From contig JANQQM010000157.1 in NCBI GenBank assembly GCA_028289365.1, positions 1 through 64,000 of the forward strand: a stretch of 64,000 nucleotides of DNA, written 5' to 3'. The position numbers were made by a program, and so were the translations under genes. Shown here in pieces: positions 19,930-31,581 of the stretch (the first letter of the stretch is position 1; each line of letters starts with the position of its first letter). The notes beneath the pieces were generated by a model, which saw only the letters and a program-made list of their open reading frames with translations, ran no database searches and was not told the origin of the DNA. Source of the DNA: Salaquimonas sp. GTDB taxonomy: Bacteria; Pseudomonadota; Alphaproteobacteria; Rhizobiales; Rhizobiaceae.

Positions 19930-22188
19930 ATGCTACGAAATTTTATCGCAATAATGTTTGCAATGATCCTCGGCCTGGTGATGTTGACCGGCACGGCGAA
20001 TTCACAAACTGCAAGTAGCGAACAAAACGCGGAAGCGGCACAGACAATCGAGCAACTGACCTCCAAGATGAGTCCGGAGGAAGTCAGCGCACTTACCAGG
20101 CTTCTGGAATTGATGTCCGCCGACGGTACTGCACCGGCAGTTGGCACAAGCGAAACCAGTACTGTTGCCGCGCTTCAGGCGATTTGGACTTCATACACGA
20201 CTTATTTTTGGAAGAATGTCGCTGCATTCCCGGAGATGGCAAGGGGTGTCGGGCAGGCAATCGGAGAGATATTCTCAGGACGCGGAATGGGCGGCAGCCT
20301 GGTGTTTCTTGGCATGATGCTTGTCATTCTCGCGGTTGGATATGGTTTTGAATTCGCGGCGACCCGGGCCACAGTAACCTGGCGCGAGAAAGCGCGGCAG
20401 GCGAATACCGACGATCTGACCGCAATGGTCAAGGCATTGGGAATGCGGCTGCTTCTGGAACTTCTTGGTCTGGCAGTATTTACGATCGTTACGATCAATC
20501 TCGCCAGTCTGATGTTTGCCGAAGCCAAGGATGAGTTCATTGCTGGAAAGTTCATATTGCTGGCGATTGTAGGCGTGCGTCTGATGGAAACCTTCCTGCG
20601 CTTGATGCTGGCGCCTTATCATCCCTCCTTGCGCATTGTTTCGGCAGATGACTGGACGGCCAAGTTCATCTATCGGAGCCTTGTCGGTTTGGCAGCCTTC
20701 ATTGGCGTTGCGGTATTTTTGTTCGAGATAATGAAAGAATACAATATCGCCGGCATACCGGCATTCCGGTTCTGGGTCAGCTTGCTTGTCTATGTCGCTC
20801 TTGTTTATGTCACCTGGAAAGCCCGGAACGGACTTACCTCGATCATCAAGGGGCAGGACGAATTTGTAACCACCGGTCTGGAACGCATGGCTACCTGGTG
20901 GCCATGGATTTCCATCATCGCCATGGCAATACAATATTTCGCGGTGTCAGTTGCGCTTGCCAGCGGCAAGACGGATTACTCGCCCGCAATCGGCATTACC
21001 ACAATTGCCATTATCGTATTTGCGCCTTTCCTCGACACGATGCTGCGTGGCGTGATCAAACATCTTGTTCCGCCCATGCAGGGAGAAGGTGAAGTCGCGG
21101 AAGCTGCTTATCTCAGGACCCGGCTCAGTTATGCCAGGATCGGCAGGGTGCTGCTGCTGGCTGTTTTATTTTTCACGATCGCCAAGCTATGGGGCATTGA
21201 CTTCCAAAATATTGCGGCACTTGGTTTCGGTGCGCAGCTTGCAGCGAAACTGATGAGTTTCATCATGGTCCTGGTGCTTGGTTATCTGGTTTGGGAAGTC
21301 GTCAATCTGTGGCTGACCCGGCAACTTACCCGGGACAAGCCCGTCGAGAGCGGGGAGCCCAAGGCGGATGATGAGGGCGGATTTACAGCCGGTACCCGGA
21401 TTGCAACCATCATGCCTTTGGTTCGAATAAGCCTACTGATTGCCATTGCGGTCATTACCGGCCTGTTAGCGCTCAGCCAGCTGGGGTTGAACATTACGCC
21501 ATTGCTGGCAGGTGCTGGTGTTTTTGGCATCGCGATCGGCTTCGGGGCACAGACGCTCGTCAAGGATGTGGTGTCAGGTGTGTTCTTTCTCCTGGATGAC
21601 GCGTTCAGGATTGGTGAATTTATCGATGTGGGCGGTACGATGGGGACGATCGAAAAAATATCGGTGCGTTCGCTGCGGCTGCGTCATCCGAATGGTCCGG
21701 TCCACATCATCCCCTATGGCGAGATTGCGAAACTGACCAATAACAGCCGGGATTATGTGATCATGAAATTGCGGTTCACCGTGCCGTTCGACACCGATAT
21801 CGAGAAGGTCAGGAAGCTGTTCAAGAAGATCGGCCAGCAGATGATGGAAGATCCCAATCTGGCGAAAGACTTCATCGAGCCTTTCAAATCCCAGGGTGTG
21901 GCCGATGTTGATGATGTCGGCATCGTCGTCCGTGGCAAGTTCAAGACGAAGCCCGGGGCCCAATGGATGATCCGCAAGGAGGTCTATGCAAGGGTTCAAA
22001 AGGCGTTTGAGGAAAACGGAATTCAATTTGCCCGCAAGGAAGTGCGCGTTCACATACCCGATCTGGACGATGACGATGAGCTAACCAAGGAACAGAAAGA
22101 GGAAGTCCTGAAAGCCGCAGGCACCGCTGCCGCGGCTGAGGCTGAAAAGCCAGGTGGCAGCAAACCCGCGGCTGCTGATCCATTCTAG
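19930..22188 (+). CDS. Large MscS-family mechanosensitive channel
   Basis: A 752-residue channel. The start at ATG 19930 gives a signal peptide (MLRNFIAIMFAMILGLVML). A periplasmic helical domain (about 28-95) and about ten membrane helices follow. The MscS core includes the pore helix AGAGVFGIAIGFGAQTLVKD (about residues 525-544), then DDAFRIGEFIDVGG and the beta-domain RHPNGPVHIIPYGEI. The C-terminal cytoplasmic cage runs to about 710, ending in an acidic, Ala-rich tail. Size and layout resemble E. coli YbiO-type channels (about 740 residues) rather than small MscS. The expected role is release of solutes under hypo-osmotic shock. An earlier in-frame ATG at 19897 lacks a good site. Confidence 0.9.
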   Translation: MLRNFIAIMFAMILGLVMLTGTANSQTASSEQNAEAAQTIEQLTSKMSPEEVSALTRLLELMSADGTAPAVGTSETSTVAALQAIWTSYTTYFWKNVAAFPEMARGVGQAIGEIFSGRGMGGSLVFLGMMLVILAVGYGFEFAATRATVTWREKARQANTDDLTAMVKALGMRLLLELLGLAVFTIVTINLASLMFAEAKDEFIAGKFILLAIVGVRLMETFLRLMLAPYHPSLRIVSADDWTAKFIYRSLVGLAAFIGVAVFLFEIMKEYNIAGIPAFRFWVSLLVYVALVYVTWKARNGLTSIIKGQDEFVTTGLERMATWWPWISIIAMAIQYFAVSVALASGKTDYSPAIGITTIAIIVFAPFLDTMLRGVIKHLVPPMQGEGEVAEAAYLRTRLSYARIGRVLLLAVLFFTIAKLWGIDFQNIAALGFGAQLAAKLMSFIMVLVLGYLVWEVVNLWLTRQLTRDKPVESGEPKADDEGGFTAGTRIATIMPLVRISLLIAIAVITGLLALSQLGLNITPLLAGAGVFGIAIGFGAQTLVKDVVSGVFFLLDDAFRIGEFIDVGGTMGTIEKISVRSLRLRHPNGPVHIIPYGEIAKLTNNSRDYVIMKLRFTVPFDTDIEKVRKLFKKIGQQMMEDPNLAKDFIEPFKSQGVADVDDVGIVVRGKFKTKPGAQWMIRKEVYARVQKAFEENGIQFARKEVRVHIPDLDDDDELTKEQKEEVLKAAGTAAAAEAEKPGGSKPAAADPF

Positions 22189-22226
22189 GCACCGGTGGTG
22201 CGACAGCCCCTGACTGTTAATTCAGT

Positions 22227-23378
22227 CTAGATCAGATCGCGTTTCGAAAGATTCGACATCAGCGATCTGGTTCCGAATGTCCATGGGGCACACTCAGTAG
22301 ACAGACGAACTGTATTGGTCAGTTTGCCCAGCCCTGTCGAACTGATGCTGACAATGTCGCCGATCTTGTGCGTAAAACCTTCCCCTGCAACATCGCGGTC
22401 CTCCGTCGGTGCGAACAGCGTGCCGAGAAACAGCATCAGACCGTCCGGATATTGATGGTGACGTCCGACGGTCTGGCTTACCAGATCTTCCGGGTCGCGA
22501 CTGATTTCCTTCATTGACGAATGGCCTTTTAATACAAATTCATCCGGGCCAACCACAGTAAGGTCCAGCGTTGCGGTTCTTACGTCGTCAAGGGTGAAGC
22601 CTGCATCGAACAAGCGAATGAAAGGACCGATGGCGCAACTGGCATTGTTATCCTTGGCCTTGGACAAGAGTAGTGCGGACCGCCCTTCGACATCGCGCAA
22701 ATTTACATCGTTACCCAATGTTGCGCCGACAATCTTTCCTGCCGATGACACTGCCAGAACGATTTCAGGTTCCGGATTGTTCCAGCTTGAAATCGGGTGC
22801 AGGCCGACATCGGCTCCCGGACCAACGGCTGAAAGGACCTGGGCTTTCGAGAACACTTCTGCATCCGGGCCGATGCCGACCTCCAGATATTGAGACCACA
22901 GGCCTTCAGCGATAAGGGCGGCCTTGACCGCGGCAGCTTCATCCGAGCCAGCACGTATGTCGCGCAGACTGTCTCCAACAATCTTGCCGACGCGGTCCCT
23001 GATTGATTCCGCCTTTTTGGGGTCGCCTGCGGCCTGTTCCTCGATGACACGCTCGACCATGGAACCGGCAAAGGTGACACCGCAGGCCTTGATTGCCTGA
23101 AGGTCGCAGGGTGCCAGAAAATGAATGGCGGAATTATCGCCGACATTGGCGGATGAAATCTGGTCTATGGTTCCCAGTACTGGGCCGGTGGCGGAACCGA
23201 CATAATCTGCCGGGCTGTCCATTTCGCAAATGTCTCGGACGAGGGGAGCAGTGCGCGAGGTTATGTCCACCACATTGCCATTGCGGATAGTCACTACCGA
23301 AGGGCCGGACATGGCTGGGTTCCAGACCCGGCCAACGAATATTCCAGTGCCGTCCTCGATTTCCAGGGTATCTGTCAT
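22227..23378 (-). CDS. FAH-family 2-keto-3-deoxy-acid dehydratase-like protein
   Basis: A 383-residue fumarylacetoacetate-hydrolase superfamily protein. Metal ligands are seen in NNPEPEIVLAVSS (two Glu, about residues 202-214) and in GNDVNLRDVEGRSALLLSKA (Asp, about 224-243). The long N-terminal region and the LRDVEGRS wording match a subgroup that includes archaeal 2-keto-3-deoxy-D-arabinonate dehydratase, rather than classical fumarylacetoacetase. Divergent from it lies an alpha-ketoglutarate-semialdehyde dehydrogenase gene, the next step of that oxidative pentose/sugar-acid route. This makes a dehydratase role attractive; the exact sugar acid is not determined. Confidence 0.85.
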   Translation of the reverse strand: MTDTLEIEDGTGIFVGRVWNPAMSGPSVVTIRNGNVVDITSRTAPLVRDICEMDSPADYVGSATGPVLGTIDQISSANVGDNSAIHFLAPCDLQAIKACGVTFAGSMVERVIEEQAAGDPKKAESIRDRVGKIVGDSLRDIRAGSDEAAAVKAALIAEGLWSQYLEVGIGPDAEVFSKAQVLSAVGPGADVGLHPISSWNNPEPEIVLAVSSAGKIVGATLGNDVNLRDVEGRSALLLSKAKDNNASCAIGPFIRLFDAGFTLDDVRTATLDLTVVGPDEFVLKGHSSMKEISRDPEDLVSQTVGRHHQYPDGLMLFLGTLFAPTEDRDVAGEGFTHKIGDIVSISSTGLGKLTNTVRLSTECAPWTFGTRSLMSNLSKRDLI

Positions 23379-23696
23379 TACTCATCCAACTGTTTTGTTT
23401 CTCAATTATCGGCGATAACAAAAAAGCCGGAGCCCGGATTTGTCAATTGATGTGTCGGGTTGTCTTGTTGGACAGCCCAATGCAGGTTTGAATCTTGATG
23501 GATCTCATAAAACAGTTTGTGTGCAGTACCCTATTCCAGATATAACCGCCGAAGATGAATGTTGCGGTCAAAATTAACATAGACGTCAAATATCCGGGTT
23601 GAGTCAGCTGTGAAATAGTTGGACAATTCCAATGACCGCCGTAACCGGCTTCTACCCGAAAATCCGACAAAACCTTGAATCGACAGGGAAGCAGAT
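23379..23696. promoter_or_regulatory. 318-bp divergent promoter region, FAH-family gene / KGSA dehydrogenase
   Basis: The region must hold both promoters. Inverted repeats seen are a near-perfect 8-bp stem (23457-23464 with 23471-23478, one G-U pair), the short palindrome TCAATTGA at 23442, and TTGGA-CAAT-TCCAA at 23619-23632, 65 bp before the dehydrogenase start. Any of these could bind a regulator, but no regulator gene is adjacent. I see no gene inside. Confidence 0.4.
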
Positions 23697-25202
23697 ATGC
23701 TGATTGGAAAACATTTGATTGCAGGCCAATGGCTTGCTGGCAATTCAACATTCACAAACGAGCCAGTATCCGGCACGCCAGACAGTTTTTCTACCGGCAC
23801 ACCGGAACTCGTCGATATGGCAGCAAAGGCGGCTGAAGAAGCCTTCTGGACCTATGGCTATAGCAGCCGCGCTGAAAGGGCGGTGTTCCTCCGGGCAATT
23901 GCCGAGGAAATCGATGCGCTCGGTGACGAAATCACGGCGATTGGAACGAAAGAGACCGGGCTTCCTGAAGCGAGGCTTATCGGAGAACGCGGCAGAACGG
24001 TTGGCCAATTGCGGCTGTTTGCCGACCATATCGAAAAGGGCGAATATCTAGACCTGCGTCATGATGAAGCCCTGCCCAACCGCGAGCCACTACCGAGACC
24101 TGACCTTCGTCTCATGCAACGTCCGGTCGGTCCGGTCGGGGTATTTGGAGCGTCGAACTTTCCCTTGGCCTTCTCGACAGCAGGCGGCGATACCGCAAGT
24201 GCATTAGCGGCTGGTTGTCCTGTGGTGGTCAAAGGGCACTCTGCTCATCCCGGTGTGTCGGATCTGGTTGCTCAGGCCATCGACAAGGCTATCAAACTAT
24301 GCGGTGTTCAACCGGGAACGTTCAGCCAGATCCAGGGTGGCGACCGCGCCGTCGGTCAGGCCGTGGTGCAACATCCTTTGATAAGGGCAGTTGGATTTAC
24401 CGGATCGCTCGGGGGAGGGCGGGCGCTCTATGATTTATGTGCAGCTCGGCCTGAGCCAATTCCGTTTTTCGGAGAACTCGGATCGGTGAATCCGATGTTC
24501 ATCCTGCCGTCGGCGCTTACTGTTCGGGGAAAACAAATCGCCGAAGGTTGGGCCGGATCACTCACCATGGGTGCCGGTCAGTTTTGTACCAATCCGGGAA
24601 TTGCTGTCGTGATGGAAGGTGAGGATGGTGAGGCATTTGCGGAAGCCGCCAAGGATGCGCTGAGTGCTGTTGCAGAACAGGTCATGCTGACCGATGGCAT
24701 TGCCAGCGCCTACTATCAAGGACGCGACCGGGTTGCCGCGACCAAAGGGGTTCGTGATGTTCTGACCACTTCCTGCGATCAACGAAAGGCAACGCCTTAC
24801 TTGTTTGCGACAAGCGGTAAGGAATGGCTTTCAAATCACGAACTGGGTGACGAGGTATTTGGTCCGCTCGGCCTGATTGTCACGGTCAAGGATCTGGAAG
24901 AGATGAGAGCGGTTGCCAATTCGCTTGTCGGGCAATTGACCTGCACACTTCACCAAAATGATGACGATAGTGAAATCGCCCAATCCCTGTTGCCCATATT
25001 GGAGCGCAAGGCGGGACGCATTTTGTCCAACGGATTTCCCACCGGTGTCGAGGTTTGCGACGCGATGGTGCATGGCGGGCCATATCCGGCTTCGACAAAT
25101 TTTGGTGCGACCAGTGTTGGCACAATGGCGATCCGGCGTTTCCTGCGCCCGGTCTGCTATCAAAATTTCCCGACGGATCTTCTGCCGACCGATTTGCAGT
25201 GA
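23697..25202 (+). CDS. Alpha-ketoglutarate semialdehyde (2,5-dioxovalerate) dehydrogenase
   Basis: A 501-residue aldehyde dehydrogenase of the NADP-preferring KGSADH class. The catalytic pair is the Glu in FFGELGSVNPMFI (about residue 262) and the Cys in MGAGQFCTNPGI (about 298). Other marks of this class are GVFGASNFPLAFSTAGGDTA (about 150-169), VVVKGHSAHPG in place of the usual KPSE, and NGFPTGVEVCDAMVHGGPYP near the end. The reaction is 2,5-dioxopentanoate to 2-oxoglutarate, the last step of the Weimberg, glucarate/galactarate and hydroxyproline pathways. Pairing with the divergent FAH-type dehydratase favours a sugar-acid pathway. Confidence 0.9.
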   Translation: MLIGKHLIAGQWLAGNSTFTNEPVSGTPDSFSTGTPELVDMAAKAAEEAFWTYGYSSRAERAVFLRAIAEEIDALGDEITAIGTKETGLPEARLIGERGRTVGQLRLFADHIEKGEYLDLRHDEALPNREPLPRPDLRLMQRPVGPVGVFGASNFPLAFSTAGGDTASALAAGCPVVVKGHSAHPGVSDLVAQAIDKAIKLCGVQPGTFSQIQGGDRAVGQAVVQHPLIRAVGFTGSLGGGRALYDLCAARPEPIPFFGELGSVNPMFILPSALTVRGKQIAEGWAGSLTMGAGQFCTNPGIAVVMEGEDGEAFAEAAKDALSAVAEQVMLTDGIASAYYQGRDRVAATKGVRDVLTTSCDQRKATPYLFATSGKEWLSNHELGDEVFGPLGLIVTVKDLEEMRAVANSLVGQLTCTLHQNDDDSEIAQSLLPILERKAGRILSNGFPTGVEVCDAMVHGGPYPASTNFGATSVGTMAIRRFLRPVCYQNFPTDLLPTDLQ

Positions 25203-25426
25203 TGTCGATTTGCGTACGACACAGACAAGTTAAGGTGTTTCGCACTCTATCTTTGGCTTGGTAAAACCAGAATCAAATCAGGGTGCTAGCGAAGATTGCC
25301 AAGCTTTTGATTCACTTAAAGCTATACTGGAGAATGAATTTTGCCGCCTGCTGAATGCGGGCGGTCATTTCGTTTATCCGGTACCGCTTTTCTATAGGAG
25401 CTTGACGCCGACGTTCATCAAGCCGA

Positions 25427-25696
25427 CTATTGGGCCGGCGGCATTATCCATCCGGCTGCTCTTGGTAATCTGTTTTCCTTGTCCTTGTTGTAGTCAGGCA
25501 TGGCGCAGGTGTTTCGGGATCCGCACAATGTGCATTTGAATGCGCCTTCAAGTGCCGGAATTGGTCTGCATGGCGGTAGCGGTATTGCAAGTGGATTTAC
25601 CGATTTCCAGTGTCCGCAGTTGCGGCAGTGTGCAGTCAACCCATGGTTTCCTGCGATCAGGTCACCAATCGTTACGGGTTCAAATTCTTCCGGCAT
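25427..25696 (-). CDS. Small zinc-ribbon-like protein, unknown
   Basis: An 89-residue protein with two cysteine knuckles, AHCRNCGHWKS (about residues 22-32) and FKCTLCGSRNTC (about 53-64), separated by about 30 residues. This is consistent with one structural zinc site. The sequence opens MPEEFEPVTIGDLIAGN. No signal peptide, so probably cytosolic. I do not recognise a named family; similar small CxxC proteins are common in alphaproteobacteria. It sits alone, converging on the KGSA dehydrogenase gene. Confidence 0.65.
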   Translation of the reverse strand: MPEEFEPVTIGDLIAGNHGLTAHCRNCGHWKSVNPLAIPLPPCRPIPALEGAFKCTLCGSRNTCAMPDYNKDKENRLPRAAGWIMPPAQ

Positions 25697-25808
25697 GACG
25701 CGATCCTAAACAGGTGCGCCACATGTCCACTTCGAAGATAGTCACAGTTCTGAAGACAAGCAATTGTCCTGATTGTTCCGAGGGTCGGCGGATTTAATCT
25801 CTCGAGAT

Positions 25809-25934
25809 TCAACCGACCAAATTCACAACCACTATACCGATCAGCGTCATGATAAACGCTATTCTAATGTCTGTTCGCGTGACAGACCTGATGTGGTTTC
25901 GAAGATACTCTCGTTCATACAATTCCGGTTCCAT
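25809..25934 (-). CDS. 41-residue putative single-pass membrane smORF
   Basis: An ATG at 25934 opens a 41-codon frame. The charged N-terminal part (MEPELYEREYLRNHIRSVTR, residues 1-20) is followed by TDIR and one hydrophobic helix (IAFIMTLIGIVVVNLVG, residues 25-41) reaching the stop. An AGGA ribosome site lies nine bases upstream. The orderly charged-then-hydrophobic composition looks like a real tail-anchored small protein. The plus strand has a competing 45-codon frame from 25849 without a ribosome site. No family recognised. Confidence 0.5.
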   Translation of the reverse strand: MEPELYEREYLRNHIRSVTRTDIRIAFIMTLIGIVVVNLVG

Positions 25935-26138
25935 TGTTCTAATCCTGTTACTCTCGTTATTCCCCCTTTCGATCGGTAACAGTTAATTAGCCAAGGTTTC
26001 CGGCCATGTGCCGGAATGCACAGTGAGATAAAAAAGCGTTTAGCAGGTCGGGTAAACGGACTTGTCAAGAATCGGAAATTGATCGCCGCCGATGCTCTTC
26101 AACGGCGCTACAGGTTCACGTAAATCTGAATCAAGACA
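25935..26138. other. Spacer upstream of the 41-residue smORF
   Basis: It carries the likely promoter of the smORF on the minus strand. I see no further gene. With the bases at 25697-25808 on the other side, these are the only parts of this 442-bp interval not covered by the smORF. Confidence 0.4.
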
Positions 26139-26423
26139 TCAGCTGCAATATGTAGAAATAGTACAGCGGCGTTTATCGACTGTCCGAACGCTATAAGTCA
26201 TCTGTGCCCAGGTTCGACCCGTGCAACGCACAGCGCCCGCATCCAGGATCGATCCGCCTTTATGGATACGCGTCGGTACTCCGCCCACGATCTTGTAGAT
26301 GTAACCATTTCTTTGATAGAAGGTTTTTGCCTGTTGGCAGGTCATTTGATCGGCGGTCTGGACGGCGTCGGCAGAGACTGTTTGGAGTAGAATTCCAAAC
26401 ATCAGAACTATAGAGAAACGCAA
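26139..26423 (-). CDS. Small secreted cysteine-containing protein, unknown
   Basis: A 94-residue protein with a signal peptide (about residues 1-20, MRFSIVLMFGILLQTVSADA). A mature domain of about 74 residues follows with four cysteines (MTCQQAK, VRCTGRTW, RRCTISTYCS), so two disulfides are possible. I do not recognise a family. MTCQQAKTFYQRNGYIYKI resembles other short alphaproteobacterial exported proteins. It stands alone between two gene-poor spacers. Confidence 0.65.
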   Translation of the reverse strand: MRFSIVLMFGILLQTVSADAVQTADQMTCQQAKTFYQRNGYIYKIVGGVPTRIHKGGSILDAGAVRCTGRTWAQMTYSVRTVDKRRCTISTYCS

Positions 26424-26867
26424 GCCTATCTCCCTTCATTATTTGAACTGGAAAGCGCCAGATAGAGAAATTTCAAGTTGAAACGTGCATCTATTCTTCC
26501 GTGATCGCAATCAAATTAATTGCAATTCCAGAAATTGTGAAAATCCCATGTTTTCAAAACAGTCGAGTGATGTACGCCCTGAAGTAGCCGGTGTTTAGAA
26601 GTAAAGGCGGGGGAGCCCCAGCGTACTCCCCCAACATCGACATCCATTTCGACAGGGATGCGCCTTGTAGATGTTGTTCGCAGCATTACACAGGTGATAA
26701 TTTCGCGATGTGCAATATGACACACTTCGGACCAAATAGGGTCGCCATGAATGCAAATTGCTGAAGGTCGCTTAACTGCGTACGGGCTGACATATTTGCT
26801 TCGACATGAGCGGATGGACTATGATGGCGCTGCCGAATGAAAATGTCTGTCAAAGGATGTGAAGCTC
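26424..26867. other. 444-bp spacer with a GC-rich hairpin
   Basis: No supported gene. A 7-bp G/C stem (GGGGGAG 26609-26615, CTCCCCC 26626-26632) around a 10-base loop stands out in otherwise AT-rich DNA. It is far from both neighbouring start codons, so it may end or structure an unannotated transcript. The right end carries the cNMP-protein ribosome site (AAAGGA at 26852). Confidence 0.45.
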
Positions 26868-27281
26868 ATGCCCGCAAGCCTTGCCGCATATGACGCGTTG
26901 ACGAAAGCCCCGCTATTTTCTGATTTGAGCGAAGAGGAATTGCGCAAAATCGCAGACCTGTTCGTAGAAAGGAATTTCCCGGATGGAAAAGTCATTGTGC
27001 AAGAAGGGCAGGGCGGAGAAGCGTTTTTTGTCATCAAGTCGGGTACAGCGCAGGTCACAGTCGAGGATGCCGAGCACGGCACCCTGACCGCTGGCGATTA
27101 TTTTGGCGAGATTGCGCTTTTTGACGAAGGCACACGGATGGCGTCGATATCTGCAGTTGGCGATGTAACTTGCTATACCTTGTCGAATACAGATTTTCGG
27201 ACCTTGGTTGAGCAAAATGGCGAGATTGGCTGGAAATTGCTGCAAAGGCTGACCCGGATTATCCGGGATTTCCGGCGTTGA
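26868..27281 (+). CDS. Cyclic-nucleotide-binding domain protein
   Basis: A 137-residue protein made of a single cNMP-binding (CAP_ED) domain: PLFSDLSEEELRKIADLFVE at its start (about residues 13-32) and the phosphate-binding cassette FGEIALFDEGTRMASISA (about 78-95), with Glu and Arg where cAMP/cGMP is held. There is no C-terminal helix-turn-helix, so it is not a CRP-type regulator; such stand-alone domains act as sensor subunits. ATG 26868 is chosen over GTG 26859. No partner gene adjoins, so its target is unknown. Confidence 0.83.
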   Translation: MPASLAAYDALTKAPLFSDLSEEELRKIADLFVERNFPDGKVIVQEGQGGEAFFVIKSGTAQVTVEDAEHGTLTAGDYFGEIALFDEGTRMASISAVGDVTCYTLSNTDFRTLVEQNGEIGWKLLQRLTRIIRDFRR

Positions 27282-27424
27282 AGCCTGACCCTTGTTAGGG
27301 ATCCAAAACCCAAACAAATTCAATGAATTAATTGCTGGATTTGATCGTGAAATTTCGGCATGTTTTACCGGTTTCCTGACCTGTGGTAAAATCGTCGTTT
27401 CAACCAATATTGAGGGAGGGGGCA

Positions 27425-27724
27425 ATGAAACTTCGATTTCTTGCAGCAGTATTGTTTATCGCGTCAACCACGATTTTGGCAGGCACAGCAAGTTCCAAAG
27501 ATCTGGAAGTAGCGCTGCTTGTCCCGGATACCGGCAAAGAGGCTGATTCCAGACAAGTCTGTGGGGACGGGGTCATTGTGGCAAATTCGTGCCAGCCGAA
27601 AATCCAGATCGCTGCTGGTGCAGAGTGTCCTGCCAATAGCGGAGACTACTGCTCGGATGAATTACCCTACTGTTGCGGTACGCCAGGAAATTACTATTGC
27701 GCCAAGAATGTGAACGGCTGCTGA
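27425..27724 (+). CDS. Small secreted eight-cysteine protein
   Basis: A 99-residue protein with a strong GAGGGAGGGGG ribosome site and a signal peptide (about residues 1-24, ending GTASS). The mature part is short with eight cysteines, six packed in the last 32 residues (ECPANSGDYCSDELPYCCGT, then YYCAKNVNGC). The CC pair and spacing recall granulin- or knottin-like disulfide folds, but I cannot confirm the family. An even cysteine count fits export and full disulfide bonding. It converges on the EamA transporter gene. Confidence 0.72.
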   Translation: MKLRFLAAVLFIASTTILAGTASSKDLEVALLVPDTGKEADSRQVCGDGVIVANSCQPKIQIAAGAECPANSGDYCSDELPYCCGTPGNYYCAKNVNGC

Positions 27725-27770
27725 CGACGTTGGATGAAAAAGGATCGCGTTAGCCAAAACATCCTGATTG

Positions 27771-28748
27771 TCACTCTGACCTACTCGGTTTGAATGTGGC
27801 TATTCGTTCTCGACGCAGGGTGTAGAAGCCGGTTGCGACAATTATCGATGCGCCGATCCATGTCCATATGTCCGGCAACTGTCCGAAGACCAGATACCCG
27901 TACATGGTGCCCCAGATAATCAGGGTGTATTGCACCGGGGCAACGACCACAGCCAGCGCAACCTCCAGGGATTTAATGACCAGAAACTCAGCGATTGCAG
28001 CCATTATGGTCATACTGGTCAGCAAGATAATCTCGGTTGAAGTGGTCGGCCACTTCCAGACAAAGGGTAGTGGCAAGGTCAACAGGAAGCTGCCGACCAG
28101 GGCAGTATAGGCGACAGTGGTTGACGTACGTTCGGTCGTGCCCAGGATTCTGGAAATAATTTGGCGCATGGCAAAGAACGCGGCAGCAACCAAGACCAGC
28201 AGCAAAGCCGGGTGAAACGCGCCAAATCCCGGTCGAATGACGATCAATGTACCAAGGAATCCGATGATAACGGCGATCCATCGTTTGATGCCTACCGGTT
28301 CGCGCAGCAAAAGCGCTCCGAGCAAGGTAACGATAAAGGGCGCCACAAAGGAGACGGTTACGGCGTCTGCCAGGGGTACGAAACTGACTGCGACAATGAA
28401 CAGGGTTGCAGAACAAGCGGCTAGTGCACCACGTGTGATCTGAAGCGCGGGATGACGGGTATGCAAAACCGAGGCACCGCGTATGGCCAGTAAAATCAGG
28501 ACTCCTACCAGCAAACCCAATTGCCGAGACCAGACGACTTGTAACGGATGCAAAGTGATGGTTAGAAACTTGGCCTGGGTGTCAACCGCCGCAAACAGGA
28601 ACATGCCTGCAGCCATATAGGCCAGGCCAAGCGCGTTGTCCGATTTTCGTGCGATTGGGTCCGGAACTGCCGGCGCCGTATGATTGACCGGAATGCCTGT
28701 GACTCCCTTGGCGGATTTGCAAGCCGCCGAGCTGGCGGTCAGAAGCAA
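27771..28748 (-). CDS. EamA/DMT family transporter
   Basis: A 325-residue protein with about ten membrane helices in two EamA repeats, e.g. YMAAGMFLFAAVDTQAKFL (about residues 44-62) and AEFLVIKSLEVALAVVVAPV. The first 35 residues are soluble and may be an over-long start, but I see no better start codon. DMT carriers export amino acids or other metabolites; the substrate is unknown. It is the last of three same-strand genes after the exported amidohydrolase and MBL hydrolase, with a 156-bp gap. Confidence 0.83.
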   Translation of the reverse strand: MLLTASSAACKSAKGVTGIPVNHTAPAVPDPIARKSDNALGLAYMAAGMFLFAAVDTQAKFLTITLHPLQVVWSRQLGLLVGVLILLAIRGASVLHTRHPALQITRGALAACSATLFIVAVSFVPLADAVTVSFVAPFIVTLLGALLLREPVGIKRWIAVIIGFLGTLIVIRPGFGAFHPALLLVLVAAAFFAMRQIISRILGTTERTSTTVAYTALVGSFLLTLPLPFVWKWPTTSTEIILLTSMTIMAAIAEFLVIKSLEVALAVVVAPVQYTLIIWGTMYGYLVFGQLPDIWTWIGASIIVATGFYTLRRERIATFKPSRSE

Positions 28749-28904
28749 ACATGCGCTTCGCAGGCGGGTAAATCAATCAAATTTAGCAGAACGGATGAAT
28801 TTGTCCGACAAGATCTGATAAGAAGCCGGACCGGGCAAGTGAAATTGAGACGACCAATGTTTGTTTTTTGCCGCCTCAATTTATTGGGGATCAAATGACT
28901 GAAA

Positions 28905-29774
28905 TCAATTCACTTTTCCGGTTTCCTGCAACCAGCGCGCCATGCCCCGGATATTCAGATCGCGCCATTGATCATAGGCACCCCAGTCGGAGTATTCCGA
29001 CATCAGGTCGGAGGCAACGATCTCCTCCTCTGTCTTGCCGTTCTTTAGCGCCTCCAGCACACCTGCTCGGAGTTTTTCTACGTAGATCCGTCCGTCGGTT
29101 GCGTCCTGCTTGGTGCCATTGCGGCTGTGACCTGGAACCATAACCTCAAAATCAAGGCCTTCTATCGCCTTGATCTGGTTTATCAGGCCGTCAATATCGG
29201 CGCCCGGAAAATCACGGTACGGCACACGACCCGGGGAAACAGCATCAACGACAAACGCCACATTGTCTGGTCTGACAATAGTAGCAATCAGATCGTCGCC
29301 ATGGCCCTTACCAAGAAAAGTCAGCTCGAATTCCTTACCGCCTGTCGAGAAATTGTGGGTGTCGATGAAGGTCACGGTCGGCAAGGCGGTGTCGACCCTG
29401 CCGGCTTCCACGTTTTTCTTGGCGACTTCGTGGGCGACCACTTCTATATCTCCCCAGCCTTGGCCACCGGATGCATGGTCACCATGGCTATGAGATAGGA
29501 TCATGTGGGTGACCGGCTTGTCGAACCGGTCAGTCAGTTCTGCCTTCAGCCAGGCGACGGCGTCTGCGTTTATCGGATCGGTGACGACGATGCCATCATC
29601 GGTGACCACGAACATGGCATTGTGAAAATTGTTCTGGAACCGATAGATGTCGTCAGTGACCTGCTCAATGGATCGTTTGGCGTCCTGTGCGGACGCTGGA
29701 ACAGCAGCAATGACACAGGAAACCAATACGCTTGCAGCGACGAGTTTGAACATTCCAATTGGTCTCGGTTCCAT
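28905..29774 (-). CDS. Exported metallo-beta-lactamase-fold hydrolase
   Basis: A 289-residue MBL-fold protein with a signal peptide (about residues 7-29, ending VPASAQ), so periplasmic. Metal ligands are HSHGDHASGG (about 94-103), the His in FLGKGHGDD (about 158) and the His in MVPGHSRNG (about 213). The ATG at 29774 follows a good GGGAGGATAACG site. Its class (beta-lactamase, lactonase or other ester hydrolase) cannot be settled. It lies 88 bp after the exported amidohydrolase gene, so the pair may act together on an external compound. Confidence 0.86.
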   Translation of the reverse strand: MEPRPIGMFKLVAASVLVSCVIAAVPASAQDAKRSIEQVTDDIYRFQNNFHNAMFVVTDDGIVVTDPINADAVAWLKAELTDRFDKPVTHMILSHSHGDHASGGQGWGDIEVVAHEVAKKNVEAGRVDTALPTVTFIDTHNFSTGGKEFELTFLGKGHGDDLIATIVRPDNVAFVVDAVSPGRVPYRDFPGADIDGLINQIKAIEGLDFEVMVPGHSRNGTKQDATDGRIYVEKLRAGVLEALKNGKTEEEIVASDLMSEYSDWGAYDQWRDLNIRGMARWLQETGKVN

Positions 29775-29862
29775 CGTTATCCTCCCTGAATTGATTGAAC
29801 AATTACGCCACCTGAATCCTGACGGATCAAGTCAATTTCATGTGTGCCGCTGAGAGGATTTG

Positions 29863-31581
29863 CTAGCTGCCCGCGGAATAGACGGTCTCGCCCTCCTTGA
29901 TGGTTTCAAGGACCTTGAGCGTGTCCAGCGTCTCCGGGTCCACTTTTGTCGGGTCGTCGGATATGACCACGAAATCCGCCAGTTTACCGACTTCGATCGA
30001 GCCTTTCTGATCTTCTTCAAAGTGCTGATAGGCCGGCCAGATCGTCATGGCTTTCAGGGCGGTAATCGGATCGACGCGTTGGGCTGGTCCGATAATGTCA
30101 CCGGAGCGTGACCGTCTTGTCACAGTCGCATCAAGAACGCGCATGGAATCAGGAAAGGCTACGGGCGCATCGTGATGTGAACCAAACCGCATGCCCCGTG
30201 CCCGCGCCCATCCGGTGGGTGAAATATTGTCAGCAAGCTTGGGTCCAACCGTCTGGTCGCGATGCCAGTCACCCCAATAGAACGTATGCATGGGAAACAA
30301 GGAGAGAAAGACGTTGAGCCGATTATAGGCGTCGATCTGGTCTTCGCGCAGGAACTGTCCGTGGATCAGTACCGGTCTGCGGTCCGCCGCGCCGTGCAGG
30401 CGATTGGCGACGTCAATTGCGCTGATCAGGAGATCAGAAGCCTTCTCGCCATTGGCGTGGGTAATAATCTGAATGTCGTTGTCAAATGCCCAGGCGATGG
30501 AATCGATGACTTGTTCGTTTGTTGCGGCCTGGTAGCCGGAATATCCCGGTGGGTAGACGCCGACGGGACGGTAATATGGTCTGTCGCGCCAAGCGGTAAA
30601 GCCCTGCGGTGAGCCATCGATGGTCAGTTTGGCGCCGGCGACACGGACGCGATCAACATAGGTGTCGCTGACATTGGCCTTGATAAAGTCCTTGTCGATG
30701 AGGACATCGGGATAGGTGACGATATCTATCTTGAAACCGTCTTCGGAAGCGCCGACTTTGCGCATGACTTCCACGATCGGAGGCATGGATCGGCCTTCCT
30801 GGGCGGTGGTATAGCCAAATCGGGTCCAGAGTTCGGCCCCGGCTCGCGCAAATGTCTCGAAGCCGTCCGGGCCGAGTTGGCCCATCAGTTTTGCAAGAAC
30901 CGGAAAATGGGCCGTTTCTTCCAGTACGCCGTCAGGTTCACCATTGGCGTCGCGGCGGATTATGCCACCTGGCGGATCAGGCGTTTCAGAAGTAATACCG
31001 CCTACTTCAAGCGCCTTGGAATTAGCAGCACCGAAATGCCCGGATTGGTGCACGAGATAAACCGGTATTTCGGTCGAAATCGCGTCAAGATCTTCGCGGG
31101 TCGGATGGCGCAGTTCCTTCAAGGTGGCATTGTCGTAGCCAAAACCGACAATGAGTTTGATCTTTTCAACCGCATCCTTGTTGTCTTCAGCCCATTTGCG
31201 CAATGTTTCCTGAAGCGAAGCAATGTCGGTAACTTCCCCATCTGGCGGGGCTAGTAAATTTGCCGACAATGCCTGCAAACCACCGAGAACCACATGTCCG
31301 TGTGAATCGACGAAGCCGGGCAACATGGTGCGTCCACCCAGATCGATCATTTGGGTATCTTCGCCCTTGTGCGCCATGACTGCGTCGCTGGTTCCGACAG
31401 CAATGATCCTGCCATCCTTTACGGCGACTGCTTCGGCCTCCATCGCGTCATCATTCATGGTGTAGACGGGGCCACCAGACCAGATCTTGTCGGCGATTTC
31501 CTGCGCCGTTGCAGTACTGTAATTGATTTGCCACAGTGCGGCTGCGCACAGTGTCAATAGAGCTACTCTTGGGGTCTGCAT
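29863..31581 (-). CDS. Exported amidohydrolase (YtcJ/amidohydrolase-3 family)
   Basis: A 572-residue metal-dependent amidohydrolase with a signal peptide (about residues 1-26, ending STATAQ). Motifs are GFVDSHGHVVLGG (metal HxH, about 88-100), HANGEKASDLL, and FGSHHDAPVAFPDS near the end (catalytic Asp), with AQRVDPITALKAMTIWPA and GKLADFVVISDDP as in the family. The ATG at 31581 has AGGAGG 10 bases upstream. Substrates of this group are N-acyl or imide compounds; specificity is unknown. With the next MBL hydrolase it forms a periplasmic hydrolase pair. Confidence 0.87.
   Translation of the reverse strand: MQTPRVALLTLCAAALWQINYSTATAQEIADKIWSGGPVYTMNDDAMEAEAVAVKDGRIIAVGTSDAVMAHKGEDTQMIDLGGRTMLPGFVDSHGHVVLGGLQALSANLLAPPDGEVTDIASLQETLRKWAEDNKDAVEKIKLIVGFGYDNATLKELRHPTREDLDAISTEIPVYLVHQSGHFGAANSKALEVGGITSETPDPPGGIIRRDANGEPDGVLEETAHFPVLAKLMGQLGPDGFETFARAGAELWTRFGYTTAQEGRSMPPIVEVMRKVGASEDGFKIDIVTYPDVLIDKDFIKANVSDTYVDRVRVAGAKLTIDGSPQGFTAWRDRPYYRPVGVYPPGYSGYQAATNEQVIDSIAWAFDNDIQIITHANGEKASDLLISAIDVANRLHGAADRRPVLIHGQFLREDQIDAYNRLNVFLSLFPMHTFYWGDWHRDQTVGPKLADNISPTGWARARGMRFGSHHDAPVAFPDSMRVLDATVTRRSRSGDIIGPAQRVDPITALKAMTIWPAYQHFEEDQKGSIEVGKLADFVVISDDPTKVDPETLDTLKVLETIKEGETVYSAGS

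Follow-up and report, generated by a model that had tools for sequence, protein, structure and literature searches.

A 41-codon gene for a predicted tail-anchored membrane protein, present at four dissimilar sites in three genomes of one genus

The window, by which we mean the whole 64-kb stretch of DNA analyzed here, carries on its minus strand a gene of 41 codons (25809-25934) that is very probably real and translated, because it has relatives, aligns with them without gaps and differs from them with a bias at the codon level. Its 41-residue product, MEPELYEREYLRNHIRSVTRTDIRIAFIMTLIGIVVVNLVG, taken from the frame list and its translation and ended by a TGA after codon 41, is very probably membrane-anchored, judging by its hydrophobic C-terminal end. 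The likeliest role is that of an accessory or regulatory protein in the inner membrane, with a single helix; we place the probability that it is one of the MgrB/AcrZ/KdpF/Prli42 sort at about 0.55. It clearly illustrates how a protein gene can slip past family libraries and yet be proved purely through comparison. Its parts are as follows.

25809..25934, minus strand: gene for the 41-residue, predicted tail-anchored small protein, ATG to TGA (frame, relatives, codon-level constraint)
25943..25946, minus strand: ribosome-site-like AGGA, 8 bases upstream of the ATG (read from the sequence)
25863..25934, minus strand: codons 1-24, charged N-terminal segment with invariant Y6, H14, T19, D22 and R24 (alignment, charge count)
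25812..25862, minus strand: codons 25-41, 17-residue hydrophobic C-terminal anchor (translation, hydropathy; helical in the predicted model)

A sequence-only reading of this DNA had reported the frame, a ribosome site, a charged 24-residue start and a 17-residue hydrophobic end running to the stop. The frame proved exact (41 codons plus TGA), the AGGA is in place ahead of the ATG, the 24-residue start includes 10 charged residues, and the 17-residue end that reaches the stop has a mean Kyte-Doolittle (KD) hydropathy of 2.58. The same reading held this build to be unlikely by chance. Consistently with that claim, it is found in a single ATG frame of 30 to 60 residues in the 64-kb window, the one at 25809-25934, and in none of 60 stretches of that length simulated with a first-order Markov model, a result that is weak by itself since the criteria were set after the frame had been seen. 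Conservation provides the stronger proof.

Six genomes of the genus were searched: G000, the window's own, and five others (G001 to G005). Three of the six, G000 included, contain the gene. A paralogue was found in the window's own genome (G000:C31:7657-7779, minus strand; 66% identity, E 2.3e-12), and G005 and G001 have one copy each (49% identity, E 1.7e-9, and 40% identity, E 6.7e-7, respectively). G002, G003 and G004, genomes that are 80 to 83% complete, gave no match to the protein. Read from the aligned ATG, each of the four copies has 41 codons, and their alignment has no gaps. Frames that were unconserved or broken by indels in relatives had been named beforehand as the outcome that would count against the gene; the four copies retain the 41 codons with neither gap nor stop. 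Eight alignment columns are invariant (1, 6, 14, 19, 22, 24, 25 and 39), seven of them beyond the start, and five of these seven fall in the N-terminal part. The other three starts are preceded, 7 to 8 bases upstream, by the ribosome-site-like sequences AAGGAG, AAGGA and AAGGGAG, as read from the sequence.

The G005 copy stands in a frame that stays open over 199 codons; translated from an upstream ATG, it would yield 175 aa with the same stop, so the 41-codon start of this copy is one chosen from the family alignment and the AAGGA site. The 175-aa reading lies at L028 6466-6993 on the plus strand, and its upstream part looks composition-driven by eye. The second copy of the window's genome is probably not contamination, because the composition of the 17.5 kb sampled from its contig, C31, matches that of the window (tetranucleotide correlation with the window genome, 0.968; the window's own pieces, 0.966 to 0.984). 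The G+C content is 53% in the window, 64% around the G005 copy and 68% around the G001 copy, and the frame is kept across that range. The sampled stretches of the six genomes, some of them only 3.6 to 4.5 kb long, span ~53% to 68% G+C, which is wide for one genus.

Constraint at the codon level was most evident between the two copies of the window's genome. Their 47 base differences are distributed as 14, 7 and 26 over codon positions 1, 2 and 3, with a pN/pS of 0.31, and 27 of the 41 residues are identical; 5,000 random dealings, a null that does not include base composition, averaged 14.3 identical residues and never exceeded 23. Four other pairs had pN/pS values of 0.46, 0.46, 0.70 and 0.51, with the observed identity reached in 1, 20, 61 and 3 of 5,000 dealings, respectively. 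The G005/G001 pair proves nothing alone, as its pN/pS is 0.92 and 1,218 of 5,000 dealings reach its identity. Synonymous differences were many throughout (pS 0.47 to 0.81). The synonymous-substitution bias proposed earlier as a check in related genomes is thus borne out in five pairs (0.31 to 0.70) and is not clear in the sixth. No copy has a stop within the predicted frame, which has the top BLOSUM62 score in all six pairs. The frame on its reverse complement (-0) was rejected as the coding frame; it is also open in all four copies but scores lower in every pair. Each of the remaining four frames has stops in at least two copies. The codon-level constraint and the ribosome-site-like sequences support translation from a small gene in its own right.

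Among the genomes sampled, the family appears limited to one genus, with no credible relative outside it. The samples of family, class and order overlap and are drawn from larger groups, and the class and order matches show no row for the two sister genomes. A single-sequence search matched 3 of 297 family genomes at E ≤ 0.01, all within the genus. The four-member profile drew matches from 18 of 301 relatives at E ≤ 0.1, only the three genus genomes falling below 1e-22; the other 15 were dismissed as noise (best E 0.0034 to 0.072), covering part of the profile and lying mostly within frames of more than 130 codons. The class sample yielded 3 of 385 genomes at E ≤ 0.01, namely, the window's own and two at 0.007 and 0.009 that were set aside on the same grounds of partial profile coverage and mostly long frames (>130 codons). 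In the order sample the own genome was the only match (1 of 397, E ≤ 0.001). The codon pattern of the conserved positions, with up to two mismatches allowed, occurs at four places in 394 family genomes, all in the genus and all with no mismatch; its backward control gave no match among the rows listed. A scan of named genomes returned two loci, in JAUIBM010000015.1 (isolate 6_bin.35) and BOKV01000004.1 (BroJett030), metagenome-assembled genomes titled Alphaproteobacteria; these are the G005 and G001 copies. The plasmids searched had no match to the protein, four crAss-like phage records were discarded at E 6, and none of 368 pattern stretches in viral contigs was confirmed as a relative.

The claim of the sequence-only reading that the product is tail-anchored fits both the hydropathy of the copies and the predicted structure. 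The 17-residue C-terminal end has a mean KD of 2.44 to 2.79 in all four copies, as in a one-helix small membrane protein of under 50 residues, and, read from the aligned ATG, the only membrane segment stands at the very C-terminus in each. The window copy is predicted as one helix over residues 3-40 (mean pLDDT 85.8, pTM 0.46), from an alignment of only four rows and for a fold, the lone helix, that is easily predicted. Residues 14-24 have net charges of +2, +1, 0 and +2 across the copies; arginine and positive charge beside the anchor, from which the side is judged, suggest a cytoplasmic N-terminal end in three of the four. There is no more than a hint that the function resides in the cytoplasmic part, since mean pairwise identity is nearly equal in the N-terminal part (45%) and the anchor (41%). 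Residues 4-24 showed no significant amphipathicity in any copy.

We propose a 41-residue single-helix inner-membrane protein that would be anchored through its C-terminal tail, leaving residues 1-24 on the cytoplasmic side and almost nothing outside. Since the anchor ends at the stop and leaves the ribosome only at termination, membrane insertion would follow release and be post-translational; the 27-residue YohP of E. coli is described in PMC7549839 as using a post-translational signal-recognition-particle route. The anchor might pack laterally beside a larger membrane protein or merely hold the peptide at the membrane, and the conserved face [LR]-Y-[ED]-x-[ED]-[YF]-[LI]-x-x-H-x-x-x-[LV]-T-x-x-D-[IL]-R-I may bind and modulate a partner such as a sensor kinase, a transporter or an enzyme complex, in the manner of MgrB, AcrZ, KdpF or Prli42. 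Such a partner would be encoded elsewhere, probably not by a neighbor, because no neighboring gene was seen in common at the four loci. According to PMC11539335, small membrane proteins have regulatory or complex-subunit roles, and the well-characterized ones act mainly via larger partners.

The family is not a new kind of system but would join known small membrane proteins. With MgrB, AcrZ, KdpF, Prli42 and YohP, as portrayed in PMC11539335 and PMC7549839, it shares the length class (<50 residues), one membrane helix and a standalone small gene, and with Prli42 in particular the notion that a peptide can tether a complex to the membrane. It differs from them in that no neighboring gene was recognized in common at its loci and in that, the comparison being made via family models, no library match rose beyond chance: the sole Pfam match at E ≤ 10 was OapA_N, in one of the four members at E 1.3; NCBIfam had no match to the four at E ≤ 10; and the PHROGs scan gave two hits, with E values of 0.087 and 0.28, which were discarded. 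The small DUF1127 proteins of Agrobacterium tumefaciens, with three copies and reported binding to the sensor kinase PhoR (PMC12501420), are likewise short and present in several copies per genome; in contrast to them, the 41-aa protein has a C-terminal membrane anchor, and none of its four members matched DUF1127 in Pfam at E ≤ 10. Judged by these Pfam, NCBIfam and PHROGs scans and a literature search, the family is apparently undescribed. The literature gave no match to a ten-residue piece of the protein, to the contig accession or to BroJett030, and on genus-specific orphan small proteins it returned only rhabdoviruses and mosquito saliva.

The four copies occupy four different neighborhoods. 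The nearest neighbors of the window copy are an 89-aa gene with cysteines and a frame that looks secreted; farther out, Pfam identifies aldehyde dehydrogenase and cyclic-nucleotide-binding genes. By eye, the C31 copy adjoins glutamate-synthase-like and sugar-kinase-like genes, the G005 copy is near an RNase D-like gene, and the G001 copy lies between murI-like and rpsD-like genes. The murI-rpsD spacer of G000 is ~340 bases shorter than that of G001; the two align on the rpsD side, and G000 lacks the block that contains the small gene. This spacer is well conserved beside rpsD, and the extra ~340 bases of G001 mark a presence/absence site. Unfiltered profile searches found no remnant of the gene in the G000 spacer. 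They also found no copy in the flanks, ~1.5 kb to either side, of three genes: rpsD (in G004), the RNase D-like gene (in G000, G002, G004 and, over a shortened stretch, G003) and the only other dehydrogenase gene in the genus (in G003; 71% identical). From the four unlike neighborhoods and the copy-free sites, copies therefore seem to have been gained, lost or moved singly. Shared flanking repeats, as a sign of a mobile element, were rejected, as all matches in the ~3 kb around each copy were short: the best, linking the window copy and its C31 paralogue, has 31 bases (87%, E 4.5e-4) and lies in the window's dehydrogenase gene ~1.2 kb from the small gene, and the next, between G005 and G001, has 29 bases (86%, E 0.006). 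It is tempting to imagine a genus-born, standalone 41-codon membrane regulator that moves without a recognizable mobile element and duplicates into unrelated sites under selection on the protein, its partner met in trans and its expression rewired at each site, a picture that we hold to be possible rather than probable. Being genus-limited, with paralogues at unrelated sites, the family offers a usable case for how small membrane proteins arise and spread.

The spacer around the window copy, from the end of the aldehyde dehydrogenase gene (25202) to the start of the cyclic-nucleotide-binding gene (26859), had been called otherwise empty. That description does not stand, as two more frames lie in it.

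25427..25696, minus strand: 89-aa cysteine-containing frame with two CxxC pairs; homologues found, a conserved small gene
26139..26423, minus strand: 94-aa frame with a signal-peptide-like start and several cysteines, reading like a secreted protein (by eye)

The 89-aa frame may encode a small zinc-ribbon protein; homologues 36 to 49% identical to it occur in 3 of 190 other genomes (E ≤ 1e-5). Because none was found in the five other genus genomes at that threshold, this gene and the 41-codon gene do not travel together. Neither the 89-aa nor the 94-aa frame had a Pfam or plasmid match. Four terminator-like sites were seen in 25203-26858, with 1.9 expected, none of them directly behind the small gene. 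This stretch also yielded no sigma-70-like promoter, which counts against the membrane-protein reading of the small gene as well as against the toxin reading below. Beyond the spacer, a 113-aa cysteine-containing frame (27383-27724, plus strand) has a signal-like start by eye and no Pfam match.

A type I toxin-like hydrophobic peptide, one that damages the membrane, is silenced by an antisense or cis RNA and has copies over intergenic sites, is an unlikely explanation. Type I toxins are often found as scattered, lineage-restricted paralogues, and here two paralogues share one genome, one genus alone has the family among the genomes sampled, and the four positions are non-syntenic. The usual toxin build, however, is the reverse of a charged N-terminal end followed by an anchor. 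Rfam gave no match at E ≤ 1 on either strand of 25000-27000, a search that RNAs outside known families would escape; a scan of both strands of 25203-26858 turned up nothing resembling a sigma-70 promoter, promoters of other kinds being beyond that search; and the 5' leaders fold ordinarily in three copies (z -0.29, -0.62 and +0.59), with -2.24 in the paralogue.

Doubtful to a slightly greater degree is an accessory subunit of a respiratory complex, e.g., a variant small subunit IV of aa3 oxidase (COX4_pro_2, PF07835). COX4_pro_2 is also short, with a charged N-terminal end and then a membrane helix in the same order, and a cytochrome oxidase operon of S. meliloti is known to include a small membrane protein, SEP20 (46 aa; PMC10117765). 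Five of the six genus genomes, however, have a canonical COX4_pro_2 gene elsewhere, above the curated cutoff, and the three readable PF07835 copies of the genus have a longer hydrophobic C-terminal half. In hhalign, the comparison with three of those five reached a probability of 1.3% over 13 columns. The 41-aa protein had no PF07835 match (E ≤ 10, with HMMER filters), a PF07835 search found other loci only (E ≤ 1), and no oxidase gene was recognized near the four copies, the frames being judged by eye.

A leader peptide, whose translation would control a downstream gene in place of a protein acting in trans, is improbable. The conserved 89-aa gene does begin on the same strand, its ATG at 25696 lying 112 bases past the 41-codon stop, but it is without a match in the five other genus genomes, the four loci differ in their downstream genes (by eye), the constraint acts on amino acids, and no structure common to the four leaders was seen, each leader being folded alone. 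The toxin, oxidase-subunit and leader-peptide readings are less supported than a membrane protein that contacts a partner. A chance frame without a product is the least credible reading of all: short frames are plentiful, 129 of at least 30 aa overlapping 21000-31000, but the four-member alignment, with its relatives, lack of gaps and codon bias, largely refutes it.
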